Shown here piece by piece: positions 1 through 41,043 of a stretch of 42,507 nt of DNA (position 1 is its first letter; each line of letters opens with the position of its first letter). This stretch comes from Bacteroidota bacterium. Its GTDB lineage: Bacteria > Bacteroidota > Bacteroidia > AKYH767-A > 2013-40CM-41-45. Location of the stretch: positions 1-42,507 of the forward strand of contig JAPLDA010000098.1 of the NCBI GenBank assembly GCA_026391945.1, written 5' to 3'. The notes below the pieces were generated by a model. The model ran no database searches and had not been told where the DNA came from. It saw only the letters and a program-made list of their open reading frames with translations. The position numbers were made by a program, and so were the translations under genes.

Positions 1-1734
1 CTGTCCGTCTCCGAAATTCCATGACCAGCTCGTAACCGGTTGCGGAGTAGTATTGTACATGGTAACCGTTCCTCCGAAACAGGTAACTGTATCCGACCAG
101 GCGAAACCGGCATTCGGCAAAGTTCCGGTCGTGATCCAATGAGAATCTGTCGCAATGCATCCTGCCTGGTTAGTGACTGTAAGTGTTACATGAAAATGTC
201 CAGCGCTTGTAAAAGTATGCGTGATCGTACTCGACGAAGATGTGAAATTTCCCGTGCTGTCTCCGAAGTTCCATACATACTGAACCGGAGGGAAGCTATT
301 AATATTGATGGTGCCTTCGAATAATAATGTTAAAGGAACACAGCCGCTGTCCAATGGAATTTGCGCAGTTGGTGTTACAAAAAAAGATTGAATCCCTACT
401 GTAAATTCCTTCAGATTCAGATGGTGTAGAACAGCCGTGTCTTTGCACCCATAAACATCCGTTACAATAACGTATGGAGTATCGATGCCAAAAAGGGTAT
501 AGGTGTGAGACGGGCTTGCCAGTGCAGAAGTGTTGTTCGCACCACTGGAAGGATCATCAAAATTCCAAAGCCAATGTGCAATATTCGGAGTAGGTACACT
601 GAATGAAACGATCTGTGGCAGAAGACAGCTGAAGGATGGTGTCGCAAGGATGGTTGCATTCGGCCTTGTTCTTACATGGACTATATGTGATGTGGTATGA
701 ATGCAGCCATTTGCCGTAGCGGTGAGTTGAACTGTAAAAAAATTTGAATTTTGAAAAACATGAAATGGATTGGAAGACGTACTGGTGGAACCATCGCCGA
801 AATCCCATGAATAGGAAGCATTGGAAGGAATGGTAATGTTCGAAAAAAGTGCAGTGTCACCCAAACAGATCATGGTATCAGTTGAGAAGGCAGCAGCGGT
901 ATGAATGATTTGCAGGGAATAAGAAAATGAGGCAGTACACAAAGCAGAATTTGCGATCAGGGTAATGTTATAGGTTCCGGTATTGTTATACAGATGGTTC
1001 GGATTGGTTAATGTGGATACATTTCCGGATCCGCTTGACGGGTCCCCGAAATTCCACTGGTAACCACTCACAAACCCGGAAGTAGTGTTGGTAAATGAAA
1101 TGTTGATCGGTGCATTGCATCCGGACGCCGGAGTGGTTACAAAATTTGCAATGGGTCCGTTTACAGTCACCACGTTTTTAGAAATCGTACTGTTGCATCC
1201 GTGAACATCCGATATGATCAGGTTCGCGTGAAACACCTGAGCGAAAGAATAAGTATGGATGGCAACTCCTCCCGTTATGCTGTCAACATACCCGTCATCA
1301 AACGACCATCGCCAATGATTGATGGCTCCAGCGGTTCCGGCTAATGAGTTGCTTGTAAATGTGACCGGTGATCCCGCGCAGGCCGTGTCGGGGTTGACGG
1401 TGAATGCCGCAACAGGATTGGAGTAAACGGTGATATAATTTGTTTTGATTTCCTGGTCAGAAGCAGAACTATTCGAGACCATTAATTTCACCGTATAGGT
1501 TCCCGGTAAACTATATGTTGCAGACGGATTTTCCAGTATGGATGAATTGCCATTGCCGAAATTCCAGTTGTAAGAAGCCGGGTTACCGGTGGATGTGTTG
1601 GTAAAGTTTACCGTAAGCGGCACACATCCTGAAATCACTGATGAGGTGAAATTCGCATTCAGCTGTGCCCTGCAAAAGGTTGAAATGAAAAAGAAAGCAA
1701 CTGTAAAAGGAAAAAATCGAAAAGACTGCATCAT
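1..1734 (-). CDS. Secreted multi-PKD-domain protein, C-terminus cut by window edge
   Basis: The reading frame is open on the minus strand from an ATG at 1734 (a second ATG follows at once) to the window edge, 578 codons without a stop. The first ~25 residues are a signal peptide (hydrophobic FPFTVAFFFIS, then a cleavage-like CRAQ). The rest is a chain of PKD-type beta-sandwich repeats. I count seven core motifs of the W-x-F-G/D-D/N-G kind (YNWNFGNG, WRWSFDDG, YQWNFGDP, YSWDFGDG, WLWNFDDP, YVWNFGDS, WSWNFGDG), the last near the edge. Most repeats carry a conserved Cys just before the T/N-F-T strand. PKD repeats in Bacteroidota are typical of large adhesin-like T9SS cargo, so a C-terminal sorting domain is expected beyond the window; this is inference. 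The gene is monocistronic in view. No specific ligand or enzyme domain is visible. Confidence 0.9.
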   Translation of the reverse strand, partial: MMQSFRFFPFTVAFFFISTFCRAQLNANFTSSVISGCVPLTVNFTNTSTGNPASYNWNFGNGNSSILENPSATYSLPGTYTVKLMVSNSSASDQEIKTNYITVYSNPVAAFTVNPDTACAGSPVTFTSNSLAGTAGAINHWRWSFDDGYVDSITGGVAIHTYSFAQVFHANLIISDVHGCNSTISKNVVTVNGPIANFVTTPASGCNAPINISFTNTTSGFVSGYQWNFGDPSSGSGNVSTLTNPNHLYNNTGTYNITLIANSALCTASFSYSLQIIHTAAAFSTDTMICLGDTALFSNITIPSNASYSWDFGDGSTSTSSNPFHVFQNSNFFTVQLTATANGCIHTTSHIVHVRTRPNATILATPSFSCLLPQIVSFSVPTPNIAHWLWNFDDPSSGANNTSALASPSHTYTLFGIDTPYVIVTDVYGCKDTAVLHHLNLKEFTVGIQSFFVTPTAQIPLDSGCVPLTLLFEGTININSFPPVQYVWNFGDSTGNFTSSSSTITHTFTSAGHFHVTLTVTNQAGCIATDSHWITTGTLPNAGFAWSDTVTCFGGTVTMYNTTPQPVTSWSWNFGDGQ

Positions 1735-2085
1735 CCATTCGTTTAATATTTTACTAAGTAACGATTTTATTTCGAAGCAACAAACAGCTCTTCGATTTAT
1801 ACCGATGCGGTATCTGTAATAGTCCAATACGCCTATCGGCTTTTGGCTTATAACAGCTACTCTATCGGCATAATACCTCCGCCGAGTCGGATTGGATTAT
1901 TTTATAATGCGTAATGGTATTACAGTCAATTACGGGGAATGGTGTTCATTTGGCTTCTCATGACTTTGTATAAAGGTTGATTGATTTGATTCAGTAATTG
2001 AGCAACGAACAGCAAATGGTCAGATGGTCTGTCGTCTCCTCGTCTCAAAATTGATTGCATGAATAAACTGACAAGCGATTGTGTA
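1735..2085. other. Intergenic region, no gene recognised
   Basis: About 350 bases lie between the start of the PKD gene and the 3' end of the next minus-strand gene. They should hold the PKD gene promoter, but I see no clear TAnnTTTG box on the minus strand. Short open frames here (such as a 62-codon one at 1926-2114 on the minus strand) have no recognisable product and overlap the neighbouring gene end. I see no strong hairpin or repeat. Confidence 0.5.
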
Positions 2086-2382
2086 TCAAAAAAGTTTATA
2101 AACCGTATCCACAATTTTTTCTTCGATCTTCAGCGAATCCTTTTCTGTTTTCCTGATCCCGCTTAAAAGAACCGTTACATTCACCTTGCTGATCAGCTTT
2201 TCTCTTTTTTCTATTTTGATGTGAAGCAGAACTTTGTTGCCAAAAATTTTTCTACCTCGTTCAGCAGTGACTTCTCCTTTTTTTTCATTGGAGCTCGTGA
2301 TGCGGAAGTCATTCCGGTCGCAGACTTTTTCGATGGATTTAAAAACTTCACCAAACGGGTAGTGAAGCAGGGCTGATCTCAT
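2086..2382 (-). CDS. Small protein of unknown function (98 aa)
   Basis: A 98-residue, Lys/Glu-rich soluble protein with no signal peptide or membrane segment. The sequence alternates basic and hydrophobic residues in strand-like stretches (for example KVLLHIKIEKREKLISKVNV and VNVTVLLSG), suggesting a small alpha/beta fold. I do not recognise the family. The open frame, ATG start, codon use like its neighbours and a promoter-like box just upstream support it as a real gene. It is followed by a ~140 bp gap and then, on the same strand, its upstream neighbour acs. It may be a second transcript, because it has its own candidate promoter. No function is proposed. Confidence 0.7.
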   Translation of the reverse strand: MRSALLHYPFGEVFKSIEKVCDRNDFRITSSNEKKGEVTAERGRKIFGNKVLLHIKIEKREKLISKVNVTVLLSGIRKTEKDSLKIEEKIVDTVYKLF

Positions 2383-2392
2383 GGTTTGAATT

Positions 2393-2400
2393 CAAAAATA
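2393..2400 (-). promoter_or_regulatory. Candidate -7 box (TATTTTTG) for the 98-aa gene
   Basis: On the minus strand this reads TATTTTTG, matching the Bacteroidota TAnnTTTG -7 consensus, 10 bases before the ATG at 2382. The -33 element is weak, a TTTAC around 2422-2426. Such a short leader would place transcription start close to the start codon. Confidence 0.35.
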
Positions 2401-2449
2401 TGAAACGAAAAAAAATCGCTTGTAAAGTTAAGCAATTTCATGATGCAGG

Positions 2450-2466
2450 GATGAACCGGGTTCATC
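2450..2466. repeat. Short perfect hairpin between acs and the 98-aa gene
   Basis: GATGAAC, a three-base CGG loop and GTTCATC form a perfect 7-bp stem. There is no T-tract on either side, so it is not a classical intrinsic terminator. It lies 57 bases past the acs stop and could be an mRNA 3'-end stabiliser or chance. Confidence 0.35.
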
Positions 2467-2522
2467 ATCTTACCCTGGCCACCGGAAAATTACAGATTCA
2501 CAACCACCCGATCAGATGAGGA

Positions 2523-4321
2523 TTACAATTTTCCTTTTTTGATTTCATCCACCACAGCAGGATCCAACAGGGTGGTGGTATCTCCCAAATCAGAAGTTTC
2601 TCCTTCGGCAATTTTCCGCAGGATCCTTCTCATGATTTTTCCGCTGCGGGTTTTCGGCAGCCCTGTCACAAACTGGATTTTATCCGGCTTGGCAATGGAG
2701 CCAATGATGCGTGATACCGTTAAAAGAATATCCTCCCTGGCAAGATTCTCATCACCATGATGCCCGTTGTAAATCACAAAAGCATAAATCCCCTGGCCTT
2801 TGATGTTGTGAGGGAAACCAACGACAGCACTCTCCACCACACCTGCATGCATGTTGATGGCATTTTCAACTTCAGCGGTTCCGATCCGGTGGCCGCTTAC
2901 ATTCAGCACATCATCCACGCGGCCCGTGATCCTGTAGTTTCCTTCTTCATCACGCAAACAGCCATCGCCGGTGAAATACATGTTATCATACGTAGCAAAA
3001 TAATTCAGGCGGCAACGTTCATGATCGCCGTAAGTGGTTCGTAACATTCCCGGCCATGGAAACTTGATACAAAGATTGCCACCGACGTTGTTGCCTTCAA
3101 TTTCTTTTCCGTTTTCATCAACAAGGCAAGGCTGCACACCTGGAAGCGGAACCGTTGCATGAGCTGGCTTATGTGGTGTGACATCGGCAAGATTGGAGAT
3201 CATGATTCCGCCGGTCTCTGTTTGCCACCACGTATCCACCACCGGGCATTTTTCTTTCCCGATGTTTTTATGATACCAGTGCCATGCTTCTTCATTGATC
3301 GGTTCACCAACCGTTCCAAGCACTTTCAATGAATCCAGTTTTTTGTCTTTGACGTGAGTCAGTCCGAAAGCCATCAGGCTGCGAATGGCTGTTGGCGCGG
3401 TGTACAAGATATCCACATCAAATTTATCCGCGATGTCCCAGAAACGGCCGGCATCGGGATACGTTGGAATGCCCTCGAACATCAGCGTGGTGGCGCCGGC
3501 GCTGAGTGGTCCGTAAATGATGTAACTGTGGCCGGTGATCCAGCCGATGTCGGCCGTACAGAAATGAATTTGCCCGGGCTGGTATTGAAAAACATTTACA
3601 AACGTGTAATTCGCCCACACCATGTAACCCGCGCAGGTATGAACAACACCTTTCGGTTTTCCGGTTGATCCGGATGTGTACAGGATGAACAGCATGTCTT
3701 CCGCATCCATTTCTTCCGCGACAAAATCCGGATTGCCCTGCGTTTCCACTTTTTTAATTTCATCTTCCCACTATCCTTCCCACCGCGAAACGCACCGTCG
3801 CAAGTGATGATGAATTCTGCTTTTGCATCCTGCAAACGGTCGGCAATCGATTGGGAAGAAAATCCGCCGAACACAACGGAATGCACAGCTCCGACTCTCG
3901 CACAGGCGAGCACGGCAATGGCCAGTTCCGGAATCATCCCCATGTAAATGCACACGCGGTCGCCTTTTTTGACACCGTTATTTTTCAGAACGTTGGAGAA
4001 TTGTTTGACCTTAAACAAAAGTTCCTTGTACGTGAGGATGCGGTGATGCTCTTCCGGATCATTCGGTTCCCAGATGATGGCCGGTTTGTTCCCGAGTTTT
4101 TCGATGTGACGGTCGAGGCAGTTCTCCGTGATGTTGAGCTTGCCGCCGGAAAACCATTTGATATCCGGATCTTTGAAATTCCATTCGAGAACGGTATCCC
4201 ATTTTTTCCGCCAGTAAAAATTTTCTGCGATTTCACTCCAGAAAGTTTCCGGATTCTCCACACTTTTTTTGTAGGCAGCATGGTATTCTTTGGAAGTCCT
4301 GACCTGGTATGGATATGACAT
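2523..4321 (-). pseudogene. acs: Acetyl-CoA synthetase gene, broken by internal deletion and frameshift
   Basis: Acs makes acetyl-CoA from acetate, ATP and CoA through an acetyl-AMP intermediate. The N-terminal part (ATG at 4321) runs as normal Acs through residues 1-182 (SVVFGGFSSQSIADRLQDA, ending CDGAFRGGK). The frame is then lost near 3775. The C-terminal part continues in another frame from WEDEIKKVE to the stop at 2523. It keeps the adenylation P-loop [10 protein letters not shown], the WWQTETGG motif and the acetylatable Lys region [11 protein letters not shown]. Comparing with the family spacing I remember, about 40 residues between RGGK and WEDE are reduced to 5 bases, a loss of roughly 115 bases. 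An 8-base repeat GTGGGAAG sits twice at the junction. As written, the gene gives a 241-aa truncated product; a downstream GTG could start the C-terminal part but would not make a working enzyme. An assembly error is the main alternative. Confidence 0.9.
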
Positions 4322-29791: not shown

Positions 29792-32749
29792 ATGTCATTA
29801 AAAACAATTGTATCCATATTGCTTAAAGCGTGTATCTTTTTTTTTCTTTTTCTTTTCTCCTGCACACTGAAAGCGCAGGAGAAACTTCCGCCTTTCATTT
29901 CGAAACAATCTGCTCATTGGGCGGATTCAGTCATCTCCGGCCTGTCGCCTGAACAGCGCATCGCGCAACTGTTCATGGTTGCCGCGTGGAGCAACAAGGA
30001 TTCCGTTCATGTGAATGAAATCAAACAACTGATCACCACATGGGGAATCGGCGGACTCATTTTTTTTCAGGGCGGACCGGTTCGCCAGGCTTTGCTCACC
30101 AATCAATACCAGTCGTTGTCGAAAGTTCCGCTGCTCATTGGAATTGATGGCGAATGGGGATTGGCCATGCGTCTCGACAGCACCATCCGTTTTCCGCGGC
30201 AGATGACACTTTCAGCGATGCCTGAAGATACCCTGGTTTATACCATGGGAGAGGAGATTGCGCGCGAATGTAAACGAATGGGAATACACACTAACTTTTC
30301 TCCCGTGGCTGATGTCAATAACAATCCCCAGAACCCGATCATCGGCAGCCGTTCGTTCAGTGATGATAAAAATACGGTGGCAAAATATGCTTCCGTTTAT
30401 ATGAAAGCATTGCAGGATCATTTCATCCTGGCTACCGGAAAACATTTTCCCGGTCATGGCGACACGGATATGGACTCGCATCTTTCGTTGCCGACCATCC
30501 GGAATTCAAAAACAGAGATGGATACGCTGGAGTTGTATCCTTTCAGATCGCTGATCCGGCAAGGACTTGGCGGGATGATGGTGGCACATTTGAGCGTCCC
30601 GGCTTTCGACAGCATTCCGGATCATCCTTCCACGCTTTCAAAAAATATTGTCACAGGTTTATTGAAAGAACAGATGGGATTTAAAGGAATCGTCTTCACC
30701 GATGCTTTGAATATGAAAGGCGTGAGTGCCTGCTACAAACCCGGTGTACTCGATAAACTTGCTCTGCTCGCAGGCAACGATGTGATGTTGTATTCTGAAG
30801 ACGTGCACAAAGCCATCGATGAAATTCACCTCGCTGTGGAAAACTGTGAAATCAAACAGGAAGAAATTGATGCAAGGGCGAAAAAAATCCTGATGCTGAA
30901 ATACTGGGTGGGATTGAATTATTACCATTCCATTGATACCACGCACCTGTATGCTGATCTGAATACTTCATCAGCACAATACCTCCGGAATTTGTTGTAT
31001 GAAAAATCGCTGACCTTGCTGAGGAACAAGGATTCCATTCTTCCGTTACAGCATCTCGATTCGCTCAGGATTGCATCGGTAGTCGTTGGTGATCCGAAAA
31101 ATAATCCGTTTCAGCAACAACTTCAGATGTATGCTCCCGTTGATTGTTACGCCATTGAGAAAGATGCGCCGGTAAGTGTTTTTGAAGCAGTTGAAAAATT
31201 TCTTGTCAACTATGATGTGGTGATTTTGAGTCTTCACAACACCACCATGAATGCGCAAAAGGATTTTGGAATGACGGAAGCGGAATTGAAATTCATGAGC
31301 AAGGTTGTCGCACAACACAAAACCATCTTTGTTGATTTCGGAAATCCATACACCTTGTCGAAACTGGAATTTCTGAAGGATGCTGCGGCATTCGTCATGG
31401 CTTACGAGGACATGCCCGTTTCACAGAACCTCGCTGCCCAGTTGCTGTTTGGTGGTATTGAATCAAAAGGAAAATTACCGGTTGCATCCAACGGAGTATT
31501 TCCCAAAAACAGCGGCCTGGCAACTCCGCCGCCCATCCGTTTTAAATATACGTATCCTGAAGATGTAGGTATCAAAAGCGATGCTCTGAATAAAATTGAT
31601 TCAATAGTATGGAAAGCCATCCGGGCAGGGGCTTTCCCGGGTTGTGAGGTGTTGGTTGCAAAAGATCAGAAAATCATTTATTACAAATCATTCGGTACGC
31701 ATACTTACAAGGATACCTCTCGCGTCATGAATACGGATCTGTACGATGTGGCTTCCGTCACCAAAATTGTCGCCACCGGGCTCGCCGCGATGAATCTCGT
31801 GGATGAAAAAAAAATGGATCTGAACCAGCCTCTTTCAGAGTACCTGCCGGCTTTGCTTTTTACAAACAAGAAAAACCTGGTGATCCGGGATGTGATGGCT
31901 CACCAGGCAGGATTGCAACCGTGGATCCCATTCTGGAAAAATACATTGAACGAACAAGGCAACCTGTCGGATAAAATTTTCGTGCGGAAGGAAAATGAAA
32001 ATTTTTCTGTTCGTGTGGCGGAGAATATTTACATGAGAAACAGCTACCGTGATTCCGTCATGCAATGGGTTTACAATTCACCGGTCGGTGATCGTGGAAA
32101 ATATGTTTACAGTGATCTTGGTCCGATCCTCATGAAGTCAGCAATTGAAAAAATCACCTCGCAATCATTGGATCAATACCTGGATCAGAAATTTTACCGT
32201 CCGCTTGGATTAAACAATTTCTCCTTCCATCCGCGAAATAAATTTGATCTGAAAAGAATCATCCCGACAGAAAACGATACACTTTTCCGGCACCAACTTC
32301 TTCATGCCGATGTGCACGATCCTGCAGCGGCTTTGTTTGGCGGCGTTTCAGGGAATGCGGGAGTATTTTCAAATGCAAACGATGTGGCTGTGATCATGCA
32401 GATGTGCCTGAACAGGGGATTTTACGGAGGTAAAAAATACATCAGCCAGACAACGGTGAATGAATTCACCAAACAACAGTTTCCATTGAATAAAAACCGT
32501 CGCGGACTTTTCTTTGATAAGCCCGAACCGGATCCCAAAAAAGCAAGTCCGGTTTGCAAAGATGCTTCTTTGAAAACATTCGGACACCAGGGTTTTACGG
32601 GAACGTGTACCTGGGTAGATCCGGAATATAACCTCGTATATGTTTTTCTTTCCAACCGCGTCAACCCCGATGCTTCCAACGAAAAGCTTGTGAAGATGAA
32701 TGTGAGAACGGAGATCCAGCAGGTGATTTATGATGCGATGAGGAAGTAG
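29792..32749 (+). CDS. Exported GH3 glycosidase fused to a beta-lactamase-fold serine hydrolase (985 aa)
   Basis: A signal peptide or lipoprotein-like leader is present (FFFLFLFSCTLKAQE). The first ~560 residues are a family 3 glycoside hydrolase: SPVADVNNNPQNPIIGSRSF (170-189), the NagZ-type loop KHFPGHGDTDMDSH (217-230) carrying the Asp/His acid-base dyad, and FTDALNMKG with the nucleophile Asp304. A GH3 C-terminal alpha/beta domain follows (~395-590). The last ~390 residues are a class C beta-lactamase/DD-peptidase-like hydrolase with SVTK (Ser655, Lys658), YSD (773-775) and HQGFTG. NagZ-type GH3 enzymes release N-acetylglucosamine from muropeptides, and serine hydrolases of this fold act on D-amino-acid peptides, so combined cell-wall recycling or turnover in the periplasm is likely. 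This fusion is known in Bacteroidota; substrates here are inferred. Confidence 0.9.
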   Translation: MSLKTIVSILLKACIFFFLFLFSCTLKAQEKLPPFISKQSAHWADSVISGLSPEQRIAQLFMVAAWSNKDSVHVNEIKQLITTWGIGGLIFFQGGPVRQALLTNQYQSLSKVPLLIGIDGEWGLAMRLDSTIRFPRQMTLSAMPEDTLVYTMGEEIARECKRMGIHTNFSPVADVNNNPQNPIIGSRSFSDDKNTVAKYASVYMKALQDHFILATGKHFPGHGDTDMDSHLSLPTIRNSKTEMDTLELYPFRSLIRQGLGGMMVAHLSVPAFDSIPDHPSTLSKNIVTGLLKEQMGFKGIVFTDALNMKGVSACYKPGVLDKLALLAGNDVMLYSEDVHKAIDEIHLAVENCEIKQEEIDARAKKILMLKYWVGLNYYHSIDTTHLYADLNTSSAQYLRNLLYEKSLTLLRNKDSILPLQHLDSLRIASVVVGDPKNNPFQQQLQMYAPVDCYAIEKDAPVSVFEAVEKFLVNYDVVILSLHNTTMNAQKDFGMTEAELKFMSKVVAQHKTIFVDFGNPYTLSKLEFLKDAAAFVMAYEDMPVSQNLAAQLLFGGIESKGKLPVASNGVFPKNSGLATPPPIRFKYTYPEDVGIKSDALNKIDSIVWKAIRAGAFPGCEVLVAKDQKIIYYKSFGTHTYKDTSRVMNTDLYDVASVTKIVATGLAAMNLVDEKKMDLNQPLSEYLPALLFTNKKNLVIRDVMAHQAGLQPWIPFWKNTLNEQGNLSDKIFVRKENENFSVRVAENIYMRNSYRDSVMQWVYNSPVGDRGKYVYSDLGPILMKSAIEKITSQSLDQYLDQKFYRPLGLNNFSFHPRNKFDLKRIIPTENDTLFRHQLLHADVHDPAAALFGGVSGNAGVFSNANDVAVIMQMCLNRGFYGGKKYISQTTVNEFTKQQFPLNKNRRGLFFDKPEPDPKKASPVCKDASLKTFGHQGFTGTCTWVDPEYNLVYVFLSNRVNPDASNEKLVKMNVRTEIQQVIYDAMRK

Positions 32750-32904: not shown

Positions 32905-33279
32905 ATGGCAGAAATTAAACATTTTGAAGAATTGCATTACTGGCAGAAATCCCGGGTGCTTGTTCAGAGAATTTATTACATCAGCAAAGAAGGAGAGTTG
33001 TCCAAAGATTATGATTTGAAATCGCAACTTCGCAGAGCTGCATTATCAACCATGAATAACATTGCTGAAGGGTTTTCACGATTCAGCAAAAAAGATTTTA
33101 TTAAATTCCTGGATTACACAGTCGGTTCATCTGCAGAAATAAAAAGCATGTTGTATGTTCTTGAAGACTTGAATTATGTTCACCCTAAAATAATAGATGA
33201 ACTTCGGATACTTACCGATGACACTCACAATCTTACTTCAGGTCTGATCAGGTATCTTAGAAAGAAAAAAGGTGGATGA
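32905..33279 (+). CDS. S23/four-helix-bundle protein
   Basis: A 124-residue all-helical protein of the S23 (23S rRNA intervening-sequence, TIGR02436) four-helix-bundle family. Signatures are HFEELHYWQKSRVLVQRIYY at the start, LKSQLRRAALSTMNNIAEGF, SRFSKKDFIKFLDYTVGS and AEIKSMLYVLEDLNYV. Family proteins form pentameric bundles with a basic surface and are found both in rRNA intervening sequences and as stand-alone genes; their function is unknown. Here no rRNA is nearby. The gene is flanked on both sides by unusual short repeats and sits alone between a cell-wall enzyme and bshA, as if inserted. It could be cargo of a small element. Confidence 0.9.
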   Translation: MAEIKHFEELHYWQKSRVLVQRIYYISKEGELSKDYDLKSQLRRAALSTMNNIAEGFSRFSKKDFIKFLDYTVGSSAEIKSMLYVLEDLNYVHPKIIDELRILTDDTHNLTSGLIRYLRKKKGG

Positions 33280-33343: not shown

Positions 33344-34477
33344 ATGAACATTGGCATCTTATGTTACCCGACTTTCGGTGGTAGTGGAGTCGTGGCTACC
33401 GAACTCGGGAAAGCACTTTCCGAAAAAGGCCATCACATACATTTCATCACCTACAGCCAGCCTGTTCGCCTTGAACATTTTTCCGAAAACGTTTCTTACC
33501 ATGAAGTGAGTGTCGCTGATTATCCTGTCTTTGAATATGCTCCTTACGAAACTGCATTGACGAGCAAACTCGTTGACGTGGCTTTGTTTGAGAAACTCGA
33601 CATCATCCATGTTCATTATGCCATTCCTCATGCATCGGTGGCATACATGGCGAAACAAATTTTAGCTGCACAGGGTTACCATGTTCCTTTTGTCACTACG
33701 TTGCACGGAACCGACATCACACTGGTCGGGAAGAACCCGGGGTATACTCCTGTGGTCACGTTTGCCATCAACATGAGCGATGCCGTGACGGCGGTTTCAA
33801 AAAACTTAATGGATGAAACCTATCATTCGTTTAAGATCAAAAAGGAAATTGAAGTGATTCCAAACTTCATTGATTTGCGAAGGTTCAACAAACAACGCAA
33901 GGAACATTTCAAGAGAGCCATTGCGCCGAATAACGAGCGGCTGCTGGTTCATGCATCCAACTTCCGGCCGGTGAAACGCGTAAGTGATGTCGTAAAAATA
34001 TTCAATCGTGTAGTTGAAAAAGTTCCTGCGAAACTTTTGCTGATCGGCGACGGACCTGACCGTACCAACATTGAAATGGAATGCCGCGAATCGAAAGCAT
34101 GCGATCACATCCGTTTCCTTGGCAAGCAGGAAGCGATTGAAGAAATTTTATCTGTGTCCGATTTATTCATCCTTCCCTCTGAAACGGAAAGTTTCGGGTT
34201 GGCCGCACTGGAAGCCATGGCCTGCCAGGTTCCTGTGATCTCCAGTGATACCGGCGGGATTCCGGAATTGAATGTACACGGTGTCACCGGTTTCATGAGT
34301 CATGTGGGCGATGTGGATGACATGGCAAAAAATGCGATTCACATTCTTGAAAACGATGAACGGTTATTCAAGTTCAAACACCAGGCATTGGAGCACGCTA
34401 AAAAATTTGACATCAGAAAAATTTTACCCATGTACGAATCACTGTATGAACGCGTGATCCGTCAATCTAAATCCTGA
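33344..34477 (+). CDS. bshA: N-acetyl-alpha-D-glucosaminyl L-malate synthase
   Basis: BshA joins UDP-GlcNAc and L-malate, the first step of bacillithiol synthesis. I start at ATG 33344 (MNIGILCYPTFGGSGVVATE); a GTG 24 codons upstream would add repeat-derived sequence. The product is 377 residues, the normal length, with a GT-B fold of family GT4. FGGSGVVATELGKAL binds the nucleotide sugar, and HFITYSQPVRL, THLHGTDITLVG-like (TTLHGTDITLVG) and NFIDLRRF are BshA hallmarks. SETESFGLAALEAMACQVPV is the retaining-GT E-x7-E motif. Other bsh genes (bshB, bshC) are not in the window, so they must lie elsewhere. Confidence 0.94.
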   Translation: MNIGILCYPTFGGSGVVATELGKALSEKGHHIHFITYSQPVRLEHFSENVSYHEVSVADYPVFEYAPYETALTSKLVDVALFEKLDIIHVHYAIPHASVAYMAKQILAAQGYHVPFVTTLHGTDITLVGKNPGYTPVVTFAINMSDAVTAVSKNLMDETYHSFKIKKEIEVIPNFIDLRRFNKQRKEHFKRAIAPNNERLLVHASNFRPVKRVSDVVKIFNRVVEKVPAKLLLIGDGPDRTNIEMECRESKACDHIRFLGKQEAIEEILSVSDLFILPSETESFGLAALEAMACQVPVISSDTGGIPELNVHGVTGFMSHVGDVDDMAKNAIHILENDERLFKFKHQALEHAKKFDIRKILPMYESLYERVIRQSKS

Positions 34478-35462: not shown

Positions 35463-35828
35463 TCAGAAAATCTTCGGAACGAAAATAATCAGGCCAACGG
35501 CGGCTGAAACGATTGCTGAAATCAGAACGGCACTGGCGGCAATGTCCTTTACTTTTCCAGCGAGGAAATTGTATTCAGGAGAAACAAAATCGGTGAGGTA
35601 TTCGATGGAGGTGTTGAGCAGTTCCGTCGCAAATACAATGGCGATGCTGAGCAGGATCAGGCACCATTCGGTAGGCGAAAGGTGGTAATAAAATGAAAGG
35701 GCGATCACGGCAACTGCAGCGACAAAATGAAAACGGATGTTGAACTGCGATTTGATGGCTTCTACAAGGCCTTTCGCAGCGTATACGAAGCCATTCATAA
35801 AACTTTTGAAATTTCTTCTGACTATCAT
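35463..35828 (-). CDS. DgkA-type diacylglycerol/undecaprenol kinase
   Basis: A 121-residue membrane protein with three helices, the normal DgkA size. Hallmarks are NIRFHFVAAVAVIALSFYY, FATELLNTSIEYLTDFVSP (catalytic Glu in ELLNTSIE) and LAGKVKDIAASAVLISAIVS (conserved Lys-Asp and the Ala-rich helix). The E. coli enzyme phosphorylates diacylglycerol; in many Gram-positive and Bacteroidota members the related enzyme acts on undecaprenol. It follows the YegS-type kinase gene by only 6 bases, so they are probably co-translated. Together with the LTA-synthase-like enzyme upstream, a lipid-recycling role is inferred. Confidence 0.93.
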   Translation of the reverse strand: MIVRRNFKSFMNGFVYAAKGLVEAIKSQFNIRFHFVAAVAVIALSFYYHLSPTEWCLILLSIAIVFATELLNTSIEYLTDFVSPEYNFLAGKVKDIAASAVLISAIVSAAVGLIIFVPKIF

Positions 35829-35834
35829 AACCGG

Positions 35835-36716
35835 TTAATTTAACGGAACCAAAACGTTCAGTGATTTGGGAATTATTTTGATGTGAAGATCGGAATTAAA
35901 TGTTACGGGTTCACCATCGATGTGCCCTTTTATAAAATTTTTATTTTTCAAAACAATATCCTCCCCGGTCATTCCAGTATAATATTTCGACTGGTGAATG
36001 ATGTTGTGCATCAGCCGCCAGATGAGATGCGGAGCCGCATATACCGGGAATTTGTTCATCATGGAGATGTCGATGATTCCGTCCTGTACATCGGCAAACG
36101 GGGCAATCACGGCATTGTTTCCAAACTGCGACGAGTTGGCGAAGGTGAGCAGGAAACATTCTTTTTGAAATTCATTTCCGTCAACGCAGAGTTCATACCG
36201 GAACGGCTTGTACTTATAAAACTCCGTCAGCACCAGTTTCACATACGTTGAGTAACCTCTCTTTGAAGAGGAAGCAAAGAGGTGAGCGACATGAGCATCA
36301 AAGCCGACTCCAATTGTTCCGATGCAAAATTCTTCATTCACTCTCATCGTATCCACTTTTATTGTTTTTCCAGTGTTGATGACATGAATCGCATTTTCAA
36401 TTTCCATTGGAATTTTCAAATGCCTGGCCATGCCGTTGCCTGAACCGGTTGCAAGGATACCGAGAGCCGTTTCACTTTCCATCAGCCCTTTCGCCGTCTC
36501 ATTCACGGAACCGTCGCCGCCCACGGCAACCACCACGTCATAGTTTTTAACTGCAGCTTCGAGACTCAGCACGGTAGCATGTTTTGGAGCTTCCGTAAAT
36601 GAAATCTCGTATTCAAATTTTTCTTGATCAATCAAACGGTCAATCATTCCGGGGATTCCATGTTTCTCGTGGATCCCTGATTTCGGGTTGATGATGAACC
36701 TGATTTTTTTTTTCAT
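35835..36716 (-). CDS. Soluble diacylglycerol/lipid kinase, YegS/DagK family
   Basis: A 293-residue DagK-catalytic-domain protein. IRFIINPKSGIHEK opens the fold, VAVGGDGSVNETAKGLM (64-80) is the nucleotide site, and ILATGSGNGMARHLKIP (87-103) is the second loop; GTIGVGFDAHVAHLFASSSK and GHIDGEPV belong to the C-terminal domain. Members phosphorylate diacylglycerol, sphingoid bases or phosphatidylglycerol-like lipids at the inner membrane face. The ATG at 36716 overlaps the stop of the LTA-synthase-like gene by four bases (coding 36713-36716), a tight link, and DgkA follows. Phosphatidic acid recycling from diacylglycerol made by the transferase is the likely logic. Confidence 0.9.
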   Translation of the reverse strand: MKKKIRFIINPKSGIHEKHGIPGMIDRLIDQEKFEYEISFTEAPKHATVLSLEAAVKNYDVVVAVGGDGSVNETAKGLMESETALGILATGSGNGMARHLKIPMEIENAIHVINTGKTIKVDTMRVNEEFCIGTIGVGFDAHVAHLFASSSKRGYSTYVKLVLTEFYKYKPFRYELCVDGNEFQKECFLLTFANSSQFGNNAVIAPFADVQDGIIDISMMNKFPVYAAPHLIWRLMHNIIHQSKYYTGMTGEDIVLKNKNFIKGHIDGEPVTFNSDLHIKIIPKSLNVLVPLN

Positions 36717-38671
36717 TTTTTGTCCTGGCCAATTCCGTTTTTCCCCGGAATATTTTTCCCCGTTAACTTATCGATGGTCATCTTGTTTTCTACCAGCGAT
36801 GAATTGTAATTCTGAATGAATGCTTTTGCCTTCCTTTCAAGTTTCTGAACAACGAGTGTATCTTTCTCCAGCAGGTTCACATGCAGCAGGCTGTCGGAAA
36901 CATAACGGCAAAGGAAATTATTTTTTACCGTATCAAGAGTTAACGAAAAACCGCCGTCGATCATCTGGTAGGTATCGTTCAGGAAATTCATGGCAAAATG
37001 ATCAGCGGTCGAATCAAAAACACTTTGTCCGAATGAAAAAAACGGCTCATCATAGTGCAGGTAATCCAGGATACTCGGCAGGATGTCGATGTGCTGGGTA
37101 GTGAGTTGAGAAGTGCCTTTCAAAGAGGAGTGATGCCTGTAATACAGGATCGGCACGCTGTACATCCCGACTTTCCCCTGGTAAAAAGGATATTCGGAAA
37201 GAGCCGTATGATCGGCCGTGATCACGAACAACGTGCTGTCGAAAAAACTCATCTGCGAGGCCGCTTCAAAAAATTTCTTCAATGAATAATCCGCGTATTG
37301 AATGCTCTGGTGAATCGGTAGCGTTCCTTTCCTGAACCTGTTCTTTAAATCTTCCGGGATCGAATAAGGATGATGCGAAGAAAGGGTGAAGACCACGGAA
37401 AAGAATGGTTGCTTCATTCCGTTCAGTTGCTTTGCGAAATTCTGAAGGAACGGCTCATCATAAATTCCCCAGTTGCCGTCGAAATCTTTTTCATTCCTGT
37501 ATTCCCGTCTTCCGTAATACGATTCAAAGCCGGCCAGGTGGACGAAGTTATCAAAGCCCATCGTGCCATTGGTTCCGCCATGATAGAAAGAAGTGAAGTA
37601 CCTTTTTTTCCTCAGGAGACTTGCCAGGCTGGTGATTGAATTTTCAGAATACGATGAAGTGATGAACGGTTCCGCCATCAAAGAAGGTATTCCTGCGACG
37701 ATGGAAGGAATTCCTTCGATGGATCTTTTCCCGTTTGCAAAAGCACGGGGGAATACCAGGCTTTCTTTCATGAGCGAGTCAAGGAACGGAGTGTAGCCGC
37801 GATCGTGATTCATTCCGCCGATGTATTCATTTCCGAAACTTTCCATGACGATGACTACCACGTTCAGGTTCCTGAACTTTTCGTCTCCGTTATAGTGATG
37901 AACAAGAGGAGATATTTTCTCTGCTTCTTCTTCCGAAAAAAAAGTCATTTCAGTGAGATGATTTTTTCCGAGGGTTTTCAGGATGGTAAACGGAGTGTTG
38001 AGAATCAATGCCACATCTTTTGAAGATCCATACCGGGAAGCCGAAATGATGGAGATGGGTTTGTACTGAATTCCGCCGCGGAACCCGGTGACGACGCCTG
38101 CAATGGCTACCACGCTGAAAACGATGTTACGGACGATAAAAAATGGTTGATGAGTGTTGTTTGCTGCTGCTGATGCCGCCGGTTTTATCTTTTGATAGGC
38201 ATAGACAAGCAGGAAAACGGTGAGGATAAAAACAACAAGTACATACCAGAAGTCGAGGATCATCCCGGGAACCGTATTGATAAAATCTTCTCCGAAGCTC
38301 ATAATTTTAAAAGCATCTGAAGTGGCATGCTTGGCTGAAAACCGGAACAGGCAGAAGTCAATGAAGCTGAACAGAAGCAACGGAATATTGACGGCGAGAA
38401 AAATTATTTTCAGCGACAACTGGTAATAACGGGAATAAAAAAACCGGAGTGGGTTGAAATGAAGCGCAATGAAAACGATGTTTGAAATAATGATGGCGGA
38501 AAGGTCAAACCGTATCCCGGCAATGAAATCTTTTAATAGCGATGAGGTGGGAACTTCACTGAAATAAGCCAGGTTGAAGAGTAGGAAAAGAAATCTGCAG
38601 AAGGAGTATAAAACCACCAGCAACAGCATTCTTTGTCCGAGTAAAAGCAACCTGTTCTTTGCAAACTGCAT
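36713..38671 (-). CDS. LTA-synthase-like phosphoglycerol/phosphoethanolamine transferase
   Basis: A 652-residue inner-membrane protein with about five N-terminal helices (10-205) and an extracytoplasmic sulfatase-like domain. The domain has VVVIVMESFGNEYIGG (Glu277, metal ligand), AFANGKRSIEGIPSI (Ser317 in the place of LtaS Thr300), the FYHGGTNGTMGFDNF region, and FVITADHT (Asp487, His488, metal ligands). LtaS-type enzymes transfer phosphoglycerol from phosphatidylglycerol to glycolipids or glycans, releasing diacylglycerol. Bacteroidota lack lipoteichoic acid, so the acceptor here is unknown. It starts a compact group with two lipid kinases, which fits re-phosphorylation of the released diacylglycerol. 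Confidence 0.88.
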   Translation of the reverse strand: MQFAKNRLLLLGQRMLLLVVLYSFCRFLFLLFNLAYFSEVPTSSLLKDFIAGIRFDLSAIIISNIVFIALHFNPLRFFYSRYYQLSLKIIFLAVNIPLLLFSFIDFCLFRFSAKHATSDAFKIMSFGEDFINTVPGMILDFWYVLVVFILTVFLLVYAYQKIKPAASAAANNTHQPFFIVRNIVFSVVAIAGVVTGFRGGIQYKPISIISASRYGSSKDVALILNTPFTILKTLGKNHLTEMTFFSEEEAEKISPLVHHYNGDEKFRNLNVVVIVMESFGNEYIGGMNHDRGYTPFLDSLMKESLVFPRAFANGKRSIEGIPSIVAGIPSLMAEPFITSSYSENSITSLASLLRKKRYFTSFYHGGTNGTMGFDNFVHLAGFESYYGRREYRNEKDFDGNWGIYDEPFLQNFAKQLNGMKQPFFSVVFTLSSHHPYSIPEDLKNRFRKGTLPIHQSIQYADYSLKKFFEAASQMSFFDSTLFVITADHTALSEYPFYQGKVGMYSVPILYYRHHSSLKGTSQLTTQHIDILPSILDYLHYDEPFFSFGQSVFDSTADHFAMNFLNDTYQMIDGGFSLTLDTVKNNFLCRYVSDSLLHVNLLEKDTLVVQKLERKAKAFIQNYNSSLVENKMTIDKLTGKNIPGKNGIGQDKK

Positions 38672-38762: not shown

Positions 38763-39470
38763 TTACTGTTGATGAAAAGCATCTTCATAAGGAACCGCAC
38801 TGGTTCCGGAGCATCCTGAACCGCCCACTTGTTCCTGGTCCGTAAATTTTATGGAAAAATTATATTTGCCGGATACAAGTGCAACGGGAACTGTTCCGGT
38901 GCCATTCGGAGTAAAAGTATGCGTGCATCCTGACAATCCGATTCCTATTCCGTTTTGAGCGGTCGGTAACTCAACGGAAGAACCGGTAACCTGTGCATAA
39001 ATCCCGGTGTTGTTGCTGTAATTACCAAATTTGCTGAAGAGGATTCGATTGTTATGCGTAGCATCAGCGGTAATAGTTTGTGTCCAGGAGGTTACAAAGG
39101 CATCTTCTGATGTTAAATAAGATCCTTCTAAGTACGCAGCATCATTTTTTACAATAACTGTTCTCACTGCAGTGCCGGTATTGCCCGCCTTATCTGTTGC
39201 CGTGTACGTAATGGTGTAGGTGCCGGTATGATTTGTATTTGGGTTGGTGGAACTGTTGAAATCGCTGGTAGGGGTAATCGCTCCGTCCTGATCATCCTTT
39301 GCAGTAGCACCCGGATCAGAATACGCCGCACTATTAAGGGAAAGAGTTACAGACGTGGCCCCATTAAGAGAAACAACAGGAGGAGTGGTGTCGTCCTTTT
39401 TACATCCGTTTATTAAGATCAATCCTGTAATTAAAAAAGATGCGCCGACAATTAGAATGTTTTTTTTCAT
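38763..39470 (-). CDS. Lipoprotein with an immunoglobulin-like (DUF5011) domain
   Basis: A 235-residue lipoprotein; lipobox LINGC gives Cys23, followed by KKDDTTPP. Residues ~28-110 match the DUF5011/bacterial Ig pattern (VVSLNGATSVTLSLNSAAY, DPGATAKDDQDGAITPTSDF, GTYTITYTATDKAGNTGTAV). The C-terminal ~115 residues form a second beta-rich domain (GSYLTSEDAFVTSWTQTITA, LSGCTHTFTPNGTGTVPVAL, NFSIKFTDQEQ). It is probably outer-membrane anchored and surface-exposed. The gene is single, with its own promoter and terminator. The biological role is unknown. Confidence 0.82.
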   Translation of the reverse strand: MKKNILIVGASFLITGLILINGCKKDDTTPPVVSLNGATSVTLSLNSAAYSDPGATAKDDQDGAITPTSDFNSSTNPNTNHTGTYTITYTATDKAGNTGTAVRTVIVKNDAAYLEGSYLTSEDAFVTSWTQTITADATHNNRILFSKFGNYSNNTGIYAQVTGSSVELPTAQNGIGIGLSGCTHTFTPNGTGTVPVALVSGKYNFSIKFTDQEQVGGSGCSGTSAVPYEDAFHQQ

Positions 39471-39582: not shown

Positions 39583-39590
39583 TATATTTG
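39583..39590 (+). promoter_or_regulatory. Promoter -7 box of miniature lipoprotein 1
   Basis: TATATTTG, followed directly by CGCC, matches TAnnTTTG and is 32 bases before the ATG at 39622. The -33 position is T-rich. The same TTTGCGCC word occurs before lipoproteins 2 and 3. Confidence 0.55.
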
Positions 39591-39621
39591 CGCCACAAAT
39601 CAATTAAATCACCTATCAAAA

Positions 39622-39948
39622 ATGAAAAAAGTTCTCTCTATTCTTTTAATTGCAGGCATCTCCGCATTGGTTGCCTGCGGACCAAGCGCAGAAGAAAAAG
39701 CTGCTGCTGAAAAAGCCAAACAGGATTCTATTGCTAATGTTGAAAAAGCCAAACAGGATTCCATTGCTGCTGTTGCTGCTGTTGAAAAGGCAAAAGCTGA
39801 TTCAATCGCCAACGCTGCTGCTGCTGAAAAAGCAAAAGTTGAAGCAGCTGCTGCCGAGGCTGCAAAGAAAAAACCTGCTCCTAAGGCAAAAACCAACGAG
39901 CAGAAAATGAAAGACGATAAAAAAGTCCTTCAGAAGCAAAAAGGCTGA
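39622..39948 (+). CDS. Miniature lipoprotein with Ala/Lys/Glu repeats, copy 1
   Basis: A 108-residue protein with a lipoprotein leader (KKVLSILLIAGISALVAC, Cys19). The mature part is almost only Ala, Lys, Glu, Asp, Ser and Ile in units starting EKAK-x-DSIA with 11- and 14-residue spacing (EKAKQDSIANV, EKAKQDSIAAVAAV, EKAKADSIANAAAA), then EAAAAEAAKKKPAPKAKTNE and a basic tail QKQKG. Such spacing suits a long alpha-helix or coiled coil. It is monocistronic, between its own promoter and a hairpin terminator. The role is unknown; a Lpp-like tether between membrane and wall is a speculation based on small size, helical body and Lys-rich end. Confidence 0.85.
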   Translation: MKKVLSILLIAGISALVACGPSAEEKAAAEKAKQDSIANVEKAKQDSIAAVAAVEKAKADSIANAAAAEKAKVEAAAAEAAKKKPAPKAKTNEQKMKDDKKVLQKQKG

Positions 39949-39997
39949 TATTGTGTTGCAAATAGAACTATACTCAAAAGAGAAGTTCTTTTAAAAA

Positions 39998-40032
39998 CAA
40001 CAATTAAAAATTGTTGATTTATTTTGTTTTTC
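39998..40032 (+). terminator. Terminator after miniature lipoprotein 1
   Basis: CAACAATT, loop AAA, AATTGTTG (39998-40016) is a perfect 8-bp stem, followed by the T-rich run ATTTATTTTGTTTTTC. It overlaps the start of the promoter region of copy 2. Confidence 0.65.
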
Positions 40033-40034
40033 TA

Positions 40035-40064
40035 TTGTTCAATAGAAAAATTAATATACATTTG
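40035..40064 (+). promoter_or_regulatory. Promoter of miniature lipoprotein 2
   Basis: TTG at 40035-40037, 19 bases, then TACATTTG at 40057-40064, followed by CGCCC: a full match to the Bacteroidota -33/-7 arrangement. The ATG at 40097 is 32 bases later. Confidence 0.65.
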
Positions 40065-40096
40065 CGCCCAAAATCACTTAAAATCATCAAACAAAA

Positions 40097-40396
40097 ATGA
40101 AAAAAGTTCTCTCTATCCTTTTAGTTGCAGGTATGGCTTCTTTAGTTGCCTGCGGTCCTAGTGCTGAAGAAAAAGCTGCTGCTGAAAAAGCAAAACAGGA
40201 TTCTATTGCTAATGTTGAAAAAGTAAAGCAGGATTCTATTACTGCTGTTGCTGCTGCTGAAAAAGCAAAAGCTGATTCAATTGCAAACGCTGGTGCTGAA
40301 AAAGCAAAAGCTGATTCAATTGCTGCTGCTGCTAAAAAGCCGGCTCCAAAAGCTAAAGTTGCTGCGAAACCAGCAAAACCTGCAAAGAAAAAATAA
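40097..40396 (+). CDS. Miniature lipoprotein with Ala/Lys/Glu repeats, copy 2
   Basis: A 99-residue paralogue of copy 1. The leader (KKVLSILLVAGMASLVAC, Cys19) and first ~50 mature residues are nearly identical at both protein and DNA level, pointing to recent duplication. Repeats are EKAKQDSIANV, EKVKQDSITAVAAA, EKAKADSIANAGA, EKAKADSIAAAAKK, and the protein ends in a Pro/Ala/Lys tail KPAKPAKKK. The tail is the part that differs most from copy 1. It has its own promoter and a long hairpin terminator. Function is unknown. The C-terminal Lys run could contact peptidoglycan or nucleic acid, or be linked like the terminal Lys of Lpp; none of this is shown. Confidence 0.85.
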   Translation: MKKVLSILLVAGMASLVACGPSAEEKAAAEKAKQDSIANVEKVKQDSITAVAAAEKAKADSIANAGAEKAKADSIAAAAKKPAPKAKVAAKPAKPAKKK

Positions 40397-40468
40397 TGCT
40401 CGTGTGCCGGGGATTAGAAACCTGGTAGCGAGTATTTGTTTTTCAGGAATAGTGTTCTATTCCAGTTC

Positions 40469-40516
40469 AAAAATTAACATTCGTTGGTTTATTAACCATC
40501 GGGTGTTAATTTTTTT
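40469..40516 (+). terminator. Long-stem terminator after miniature lipoprotein 2
   Basis: AAAAATTAACA (40469-40479) pairs with TGTTAATTTTT (40504-40514), and the stem continues inward (CATTCGTTGGTT with AACCATCGGGTG, mostly paired) to a TATT loop. A T-run follows to 40516. Confidence 0.75.
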
Positions 40517-40549
40517 GTTTTAAGTCACCACAGGATTCCGAAATAAGAC

Positions 40550-40557
40550 TACATTTG
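40550..40557 (+). promoter_or_regulatory. Promoter -7 box of miniature lipoprotein 3
   Basis: TACATTTG followed by CGCC, 24 bases before the ATG at 40582. The -33 region is weak. This is the third occurrence of the same TTTGCGCC word within 1 kb. Confidence 0.5.
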
Positions 40558-40581
40558 CGCCTTATAAACTAAAAAAACGTA

Positions 40582-40797
40582 ATGAAAAAAGTTCTCTCTA
40601 CCTTGTTATTTGCCGGAATGTTGGCGATTTATGCTTGCGGTCCTGGTGCCGAAGAAAAAGCGGCTGCTGATAAAGCTGCCCAGGATTCAATAGCTGCTGC
40701 CCAGCAAACGGCCAATACGATTGCTGCCGGCGATACCATGGCAAAAGCCATGGCTGACACCAGCAAAATGAAAATGGAAACTCCTGCAAAGAAGTAA
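40582..40797 (+). CDS. Miniature lipoprotein, shorter divergent copy 3
   Basis: A 71-residue protein with the same leader style (KKVLSTLLFAGMLAIYAC, Cys19) and the same start of the mature part (GPGAEEKAAADKAAQDSIAA). It carries only one repeat unit, then QQTANTIAAGDTMAKAMADT and a Met/Lys end KMKMETPAKK. The first codons (ATGAAAAAAGTTCTCTCTA) are identical in all three copies. It is the most diverged and shortest member, suggesting an older duplication or decay. It has its own promoter and a strong bidirectional terminator. Confidence 0.82.
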   Translation: MKKVLSTLLFAGMLAIYACGPGAEEKAAADKAAQDSIAAAQQTANTIAAGDTMAKAMADTSKMKMETPAKK

Positions 40798-40813
40798 TCG
40801 TTTTCATAAAAAG

Positions 40814-40850
40814 AAAAGAGGAGTTTCGGCAACGGAACTCCTCTTTTTTT
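40814..40850. terminator. Bidirectional terminator after miniature lipoprotein 3
   Basis: AAAAGAGGAGTT (40814-40825) and AACTCCTCTTTT (40836-40847) form a perfect stem with a T-run after it; on the other strand TTTTCTTTTT follows. It serves copy 3 and the convergent small gene at 40868. Confidence 0.85.
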
Positions 40851-40867: not shown

Positions 40868-41011
40868 CTAATGAGTCGTTTTATTTTTCGCTTCTGCATT
40901 GCAATCTGCACATTTTCCACCGCGGTTCCTTCCCGTGAGCGATTGATAGATTCGCCGGGCCAGAAAAATGACTGCCAAAGAAGCAATCAGGATGACAATG
41001 AACGGTTGCAT
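40868..41011 (-). CDS. FeoB-associated Cys-rich membrane-protein-like peptide (47 aa)
   Basis: A minus-strand ORF of 48 codons from ATG 41011 to a TAG at 40868. Residues 4-18 are one membrane helix (FIVILIASLAVIFLA), then a basic stretch (RRIYQSLTGRNRGG) and a CxxC pair (KCADCNAE). This is the layout of the 'FeoB-associated Cys-rich membrane protein' family, which is usually encoded near ferrous iron transporters; no feoB is in the window. The peptide probably sits in the inner membrane with the Cys pair in the cytoplasm, possibly binding iron or zinc. It ends just after the bidirectional terminator and is divergent from the E1 gene. Confidence 0.75.
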   Translation of the reverse strand: MQPFIVILIASLAVIFLARRIYQSLTGRNRGGKCADCNAEAKNKTTH

Positions 41012-41035
41012 GTTCGTCTCTTGTAATTGTGAATA

Positions 41036-41043
41036 CAAAGTTA
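41036..41043 (-). promoter_or_regulatory. Candidate -7 box (TAACTTTG) for the small Cys-rich membrane peptide
   Basis: TAACTTTG on the minus strand matches TAnnTTTG, 24 bases before the ATG at 41011. No good -33 TTG is found at the expected distance. Confidence 0.4.

Follow-up and report, generated by a model that had tools for sequence, protein, structure and literature searches.

The 42,507-base stretch of DNA analysed here, from an uncultured Bacteroidota bacterium and referred to throughout as the window, carries three small lipoprotein genes in tandem on its forward strand. Copy A (39622..39948, 108 aa, three O-glycosylation sequons) and copy B (40097..40396, 99 aa, four sequons) belong to a long type, and copy C (40582..40797, 71 aa, two sequons, net charge 0) to a short type. 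An earlier note on this DNA had described three small lipoproteins of these sizes with a shared leader, and the open reading frames and lipoboxes bear this out: all three proteins have a type II signal ending in ACG(P), and their first 19 coding bases are identical. The C-termini are Lys-rich and each is different, as had also been noted, with copy A ending in TNEQKMKDDKKVLQKQKG and copy B in KPAKPAKKK.

Each gene has its own promoter. A -7 element plus CGCC, TATATTTGCGCC, lies ahead of copy A at 39583..39594 (+), and TACATTTGCGCC lies ahead of copy B at 40057..40068 (+) and ahead of copy C at 40550..40561 (+), all as exact pattern matches. The extended form TANNTTTGCGCC was found three times in the 42,507 bases (39583, 40057 and 40550) where 0.10 would be expected, a count reached in 0 of 100 shuffles; it occurs once ahead of each lipoprotein gene and nowhere else in the window. 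Plain TANNTTTG is not above chance in the window (24 versus 30 expected), so the extended form is the special one, in agreement with the TAnnTTTG box plus CGCC that had been proposed for each gene. A TAnnTTTG box is also found upstream of 104 of 115 family members, where the opposite strand gives 40 of 115, which argues that a promoter of their own is an old trait of these genes. As suggested earlier, duplication kept the expression cassettes, the genes having been copied with their promoters, and with a promoter for every gene, duplication in tandem can increase dosage, as in the case of A and B. The companion proposal, that each gene also has its own hairpin terminator, fits B and C well and A poorly. 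Copy B is followed by three hairpins at 40395..40515 (+), the last of them long and leading into a T run (MFE -51 kcal/mol, z -9.47, 0/200 shuffles), and copy C by a strong hairpin terminator at 40811..40850 (+; MFE -25.6 kcal/mol, z -6.21), whereas after copy A there is only a weak hairpin with a short U run at 39964..39991 (+; z -1.96 over a 105-nt stretch, equalled by 6 of 200 shuffles). A generic terminator scan of the window flagged none of the three. The three successive hairpins after copy B exceed what one terminator needs. Just beyond the array, 40868-41038 (-) holds a 56-aa open reading frame like the FeoB-associated Cys-rich membrane proteins (PF12669, E 4.5e-5, 24 bits against a cut-off of 27).

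The long type is present twice, as A and B, and copy C corresponds to the short member seen in relatives. This agrees with the view that the first two copies are close and the third is older, as copy C matches the separate short paralogue of relatives. The tail of A (TNEQKMK-DKK), and not that of B, recurs in two family relatives (L011 and L012), so A is likelier than B to be the ancestral copy; between subgroups of the family, tail sequence shows no conservation. A and B rank at the 97th to 98th percentile for codon bias and C at the 56th. The bias of A and B mildly fits high expression; as proof of abundance it is weak, since the ribosomal reference is itself barely biased (mean 0.739 versus a background of 0.72).

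Searches of related genomes can reveal whether such a low-complexity array is a local oddity. In its own genome, the only convincing matches of copy B are its two neighbours, but it is matched at E<=1e-6 in 40 of 61 genomes (its own plus 60 relatives, counted from the match table). At E<=0.1 the tally is 51 of 61, which takes in long DS-repeat open reading frames that are not lipoproteins. Copy C is matched at E<=1e-5 in 44 of 149 genomes of the class. This recurrence across the class excludes a local low-complexity artefact. The same array, which the earlier note had proposed to look for in relatives, is present there, often as a long member with a short one downstream. A set of named loci was found with the pattern [AS]CGPSA[EA]E[KI], which gave 79 loci in the best 80 of 209 relatives; because these loci were selected by the pattern at +1 to +8, conservation at those positions is given no weight here. 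Loci entered the synteny list on the strength of two or more DS/DT pairs, and 4 of the 79 named loci gave no lipoprotein call. Of the remaining 75, drawn from the best 80 of 209 relatives, 25 hold two lipoprotein copies. A literature search covering small-lipoprotein tethers, the O-glycosylation motif, Ala-rich glycolipoproteins and phosphoglycerol/LtaS returned no description of the family in titles or abstract openings, and a Pfam search of A, B and C gave no family at the curated cut-off. The PG1828 family lipoprotein model (NF050142) resembles the leader and first ~50 residues of B (23.2 bits) and C (23.6 bits), with A not listed; membership was rejected, as the similarity is confined to the leader region and the scores are far under the curated cut-off of 50 bits.

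Units of EKAK-x-DSIA at 11/14-residue spacing had been described earlier, and they are present in A and mostly in B; copy C has two motifs 16 residues apart and no EKAK, and the identity of the core had been missed. In Bacteroidota, the O-glycosylation motif is D-[S/T]-[A/I/L/M/T/V] (PMC12871550, PMC8729774). Judged by its sequence, the repeated DSI(A) core of the lipoproteins is this sequon. Mature positions are 17, 28 and 42 in A and 17, 28, 42 and 55 in B; composition shuffles reached these motif counts in 0 of 20,000 trials for A and 0 of 20,000 for B, with P 0.02 for C. The rule extends to a set of 115 non-redundant members, collected without a motif filter and compared with composition shuffles. 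Here, D[ST][AILMVT] occurs 406 times versus 26.2 expected (15.5x), an excess for which raw z-scores overstate independence, because the first sequons share a common origin and the family was assembled by similarity to a query that itself bears sequons. With the first 25 mature residues dropped and strict clustering (63 of 115 kept), there are still 148 sequons versus 12.0 expected, and 3 of the Glu control versus 12.9. Every member has at least one sequon (115/115), with a range of one to six.

In the family, Ser or Thr comes directly after Asp in 411 of 543 cases and after Glu in 23 of 850; the control E[ST][AILMVT] is depleted across the 115 members (8 versus 38.2 expected), as is reversed [ST]D (18 versus 56.4). 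For comparison, B. fragilis does not accept Glu for Asp in the sequon (PMC12871550). The residue following D[ST] is within the sequon set in 406 of 411 cases, where 46% would be expected. After DS it is Ile 214 times, Leu 53, Thr 40, Val 31, Ala 27 and Met 18, yet Ala makes up 30% of residues. Thr is used in 23 of the 406 sequons and AGY serine codons in 16. In three alignments, the D-S pair is the only invariant element outside the leader and the post-Cys stretch (22/22, 18/18 and 30/30 rows). The members nonetheless show 81 distinct sequon spacing patterns, and since number and positions vary while the sequon rule stays, selection on the motif, rather than descent alone, is indicated. Sequon density is 4.6 per 100 mature residues in the family versus 1.0 in the lipoprotein open reading frames of the genome sample (n=6). 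Similar repeats exist elsewhere. For example, an 812-aa protein of L036 (positions 1617-4055, contig C102 of genome G000), with no Pfam match, has a repeat of like kind with 21 D[S/T] pairs, all 21 followed by an allowed residue (2.95 sequons expected), and other long DS-repeat open reading frames, mostly of 330-900 aa, occur in many relatives.

Whether this lineage uses the sequon can be asked of its genome. We sampled 253 kb of contigs plus the window, giving 231 open reading frames of at least 100 aa, which included A as the only one of the three lipoproteins and were assigned to classes by a crude hydrophobicity rule. Sequons exceed expectation in signal/1-TM (2.01x, n=35), lipoprotein (2.47x, n=6) and multi-TM (1.49x, n=40) reading frames, and are near expectation in unclear (1.06x, n=21) and cytoplasmic (1.07x, n=128) ones. 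The corresponding Glu controls are 0.70, 0, 0.77, 1.13 and 1.08. This enrichment in exported, and not in cytoplasmic, reading frames fits an active O-glycosylation system in the lineage, albeit indirectly. It is countered by a search at the methionyl-tRNA synthetase gene (metG), which found no adjacent cluster of flippase (wzx) and glycosyltransferase genes for the outer glycan of the kind seen in the Bacteroides locus, and the oligosaccharyltransferase of Bacteroidota O-glycosylation is listed as unknown in the available text of PMC12871550. Also within the window, 29792-32749 (+) encodes a fusion of a GH3 glycosidase with a beta-lactamase-fold domain, carrying 12 sequons, followed by a 23S rRNA-intervening sequence protein family reading frame at 32905-33279 (+; PF05635) and BshA of bacillithiol synthesis at 33344-34477 (+; TIGR03999, 560 bits, cut-off 273.7).

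Structure modelling can give insights into how the sequons might be displayed. An AlphaFold2 model of copy A, built on 30 aligned members, predicts a leader helix, a helix at 22-82, a Lys/Pro break and a short helix at 92-106 (mean pLDDT 67.6, pTM 0.28), in keeping with the long helix proposed earlier. The coiled coil proposed with it is unsupported because a hydrophobic seam is absent: 6 of the 115 members reach P<0.05 for the hydrophobic moment, which is the chance level. Repeat spacing over the 115 relatives is not fixed, spacings of 11 and of 12 occurring 39 times each among 291. A one-face glycan stripe or coiled coil derived from the 11/14 spacing was likewise rejected, as the mean cosine at 3.6 residues per turn is 0.01 against a null mean of 0.05; sequons on one helix face were not seen in this spacing test of 115 members. 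The two types differ in charge, with a mean net charge of +3.9 in the long type (mature length >=85, n=40) and -3.3 in the short type (<62, n=31), the 44 of 115 members in between being left out.

The genes flanking the array are also shared with relatives. Divergent from it lie a gene for an HYR/Ig-like lipoprotein (38763..39470, -; PF16403, E 2.5e-15) and one for an LtaS/OpgB-like sulfatase-fold enzyme (36713..38671, -; PF00884). Neighbour fractions were taken over named loci with 3 kb upstream (71) or 1.5 kb downstream (67), some of which share one genome. Among these loci of the best 80 of 209 relatives, the gene retained most often beside the lipoproteins is the LtaS-like one (35/71), then HYR (31/71), then a pyruvate/2-oxoacid dehydrogenase E1 gene (14/67). 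In 19 larger loci from relatives, the usual arrangement starts with the LtaS-like enzyme and the HYR lipoprotein, continues with the long and short lipoproteins, which are divergent from these, and closes with the E1 gene. The best NCBIfam similarity of the LtaS-like enzyme is to LtaS and OpgB-type phosphoglycerol transferases, with scores far under the cut-offs. Across 35463-38671 (-), a YegS-type lipid kinase comes after it and then a DgkA-type kinase at 35463-35828, and by sequence the three look like a set for phosphoglycerol transfer with diacylglycerol recycling. In P. gingivalis, O-glycans bear nearly stoichiometric acetyl-phosphoglycerol, with the transferase unnamed in the available text (PMC8729774), and those of P. 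intermedia bear a phospho-linked substituent (PMC10897501). A link between phosphoglycerol chemistry and these lipoproteins is only a proposal. In its full form, a teichoic-acid-like glycolipoprotein module in which the lipoproteins would carry O-glycans, the LtaS/OpgB-like enzyme would add phosphoglycerol and the two kinases would recycle diacylglycerol, we regard it as a long shot.

Because the core that recurs in them is the signal for sugar attachment in the phylum, A, B and C look more like heavily sugar-coated envelope proteins than like the wall tethers suggested in the earlier note. In an Lpp-type tether, a helical lipoprotein is bonded covalently to peptidoglycan through its C-terminal lysine, an attachment made by YkuD enzymes (PMC8263019). 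The family resembles Braun's lipoprotein Lpp (PF04728) in its small size, its long predicted helix and, in many members, a basic C-terminus; a terminal Lys is present in 78 of 115, including B and C. It differs in its dense sequons and in other respects. PF04728 is not among the Pfam matches at E<=1 for A, B or C, the seam for a coiled-coil trimer is missing, and the terminal Lys is not conserved, 37 of 115 members, copy A among them, having another last residue (G 16, Q 7, H 6, N 4, E 2, R 1, M 1). No YkuD transpeptidase is encoded in the own genome, for which completeness is given as 100%; in the related set YkuD is found in 15 of 41 genomes, and the 26 without it include the own genome, with several genomes carrying these lipoproteins among those that lack it. 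In addition, eight OmpA-domain matches can give ordinary non-covalent wall anchorage. A covalent tether is thus very improbable.

Two other readings keep the rod and change its chemistry or its place. The DSI repeats could be purely structural, with the D-S pair a feature of a low-complexity helical spacer that carries no glycan. The single predicted helix over residues 22-82 and the Ala/Lys/Glu-rich composition would suit this, and TolA domain II is a comparable Ala/Lys/Glu/Asp-rich periplasmic helical spacer, although the family is set apart from it by a lipid anchor, tiny size and sequon repeats. A purely structural role is nonetheless unlikely, as Glu, the better helix former and otherwise like Asp, is depleted ahead of S/T with an allowed residue next to it (8 versus 38 expected), the +1 position is limited to the sequon set, Thr included, and the motif has no helix phasing. 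Alternatively, the same glycosylated rods might be flipped to the cell surface or vesicles as a mucin-like coat, a hydrated sugar brush. Surface-layer proteins of T. forsythia are heavily glycosylated (PMC8729774), and the adjoining HYR lipoprotein starts with an export-like KKDD behind the Cys, which makes lipoprotein export in this lineage probable. The export signal of Bacteroidota lipoproteins consists of acidic residues directly after the Cys (PMC5080379), and an acidic pair at +2 to +6 is missing in 113 of 115 members (consensus CGPSAEEK), though +6 and +7 are mostly Glu. P. gingivalis, moreover, glycosylates periplasmic proteins and not its abundant surface proteins; abundant surface lipoproteins there avoid the sequon (PMC8729774). 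The scarcity of acidic pairs together with this preference favours the periplasmic side, and we hold with modest confidence that the lipoproteins face the periplasm, the export signal having been defined in other families. A surface coat seems rather improbable.

Our preferred reading, to which we assign a probability of about 0.62, is that A, B and C are periplasm-facing, densely O-glycosylated helical lipoproteins in which the basic tail of the long type serves for anionic envelope polymers. The locus would encode two types of one widespread Bacteroidota lipoprotein family, both of them lipid-anchored, Ala/Lys/Glu-rich and mostly helical spacers. After export and lipidation, a general O-oligosaccharyltransferase would add one oligosaccharide per sequon (three on A, four on B and two on C); sequon occupancy is near full in the species studied (PMC12871550, PMC8729774). 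This would yield a short rod, loaded with sugar, that projects from the periplasmic face of the membrane. The KP/K basic tail of A and B may bind an anionic polymer non-covalently, be it peptidoglycan, LPS phosphates or a glycerol-phosphate polymer, with the short type (C) as an uncharged or acidic companion. The O-glycoproteins of B. fragilis, P. gingivalis, T. forsythia and P. intermedia are likewise exported lipoproteins with sequons, and their post-Ser/Thr residue preferences are similar to those of the family (PMC12871550, PMC8729774, PMC10897501). Unlike in those glycoproteomes, a whole family of mini-proteins here has the sequon as its repeating element.

The function of Bacteroidota O-glycosylation is still open, according to the available text of PMC12871550, and this family offers a minimal natural substrate for testing it. 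Its members consist of hardly anything beyond a lipid-anchored rod with sequons, are kept beside an LtaS-like enzyme, and could be used to address occupancy, glycan structure, substituents and purpose. The sequon reading also explains a class of low-complexity genes that is easily dismissed as junk or taken for Lpp.
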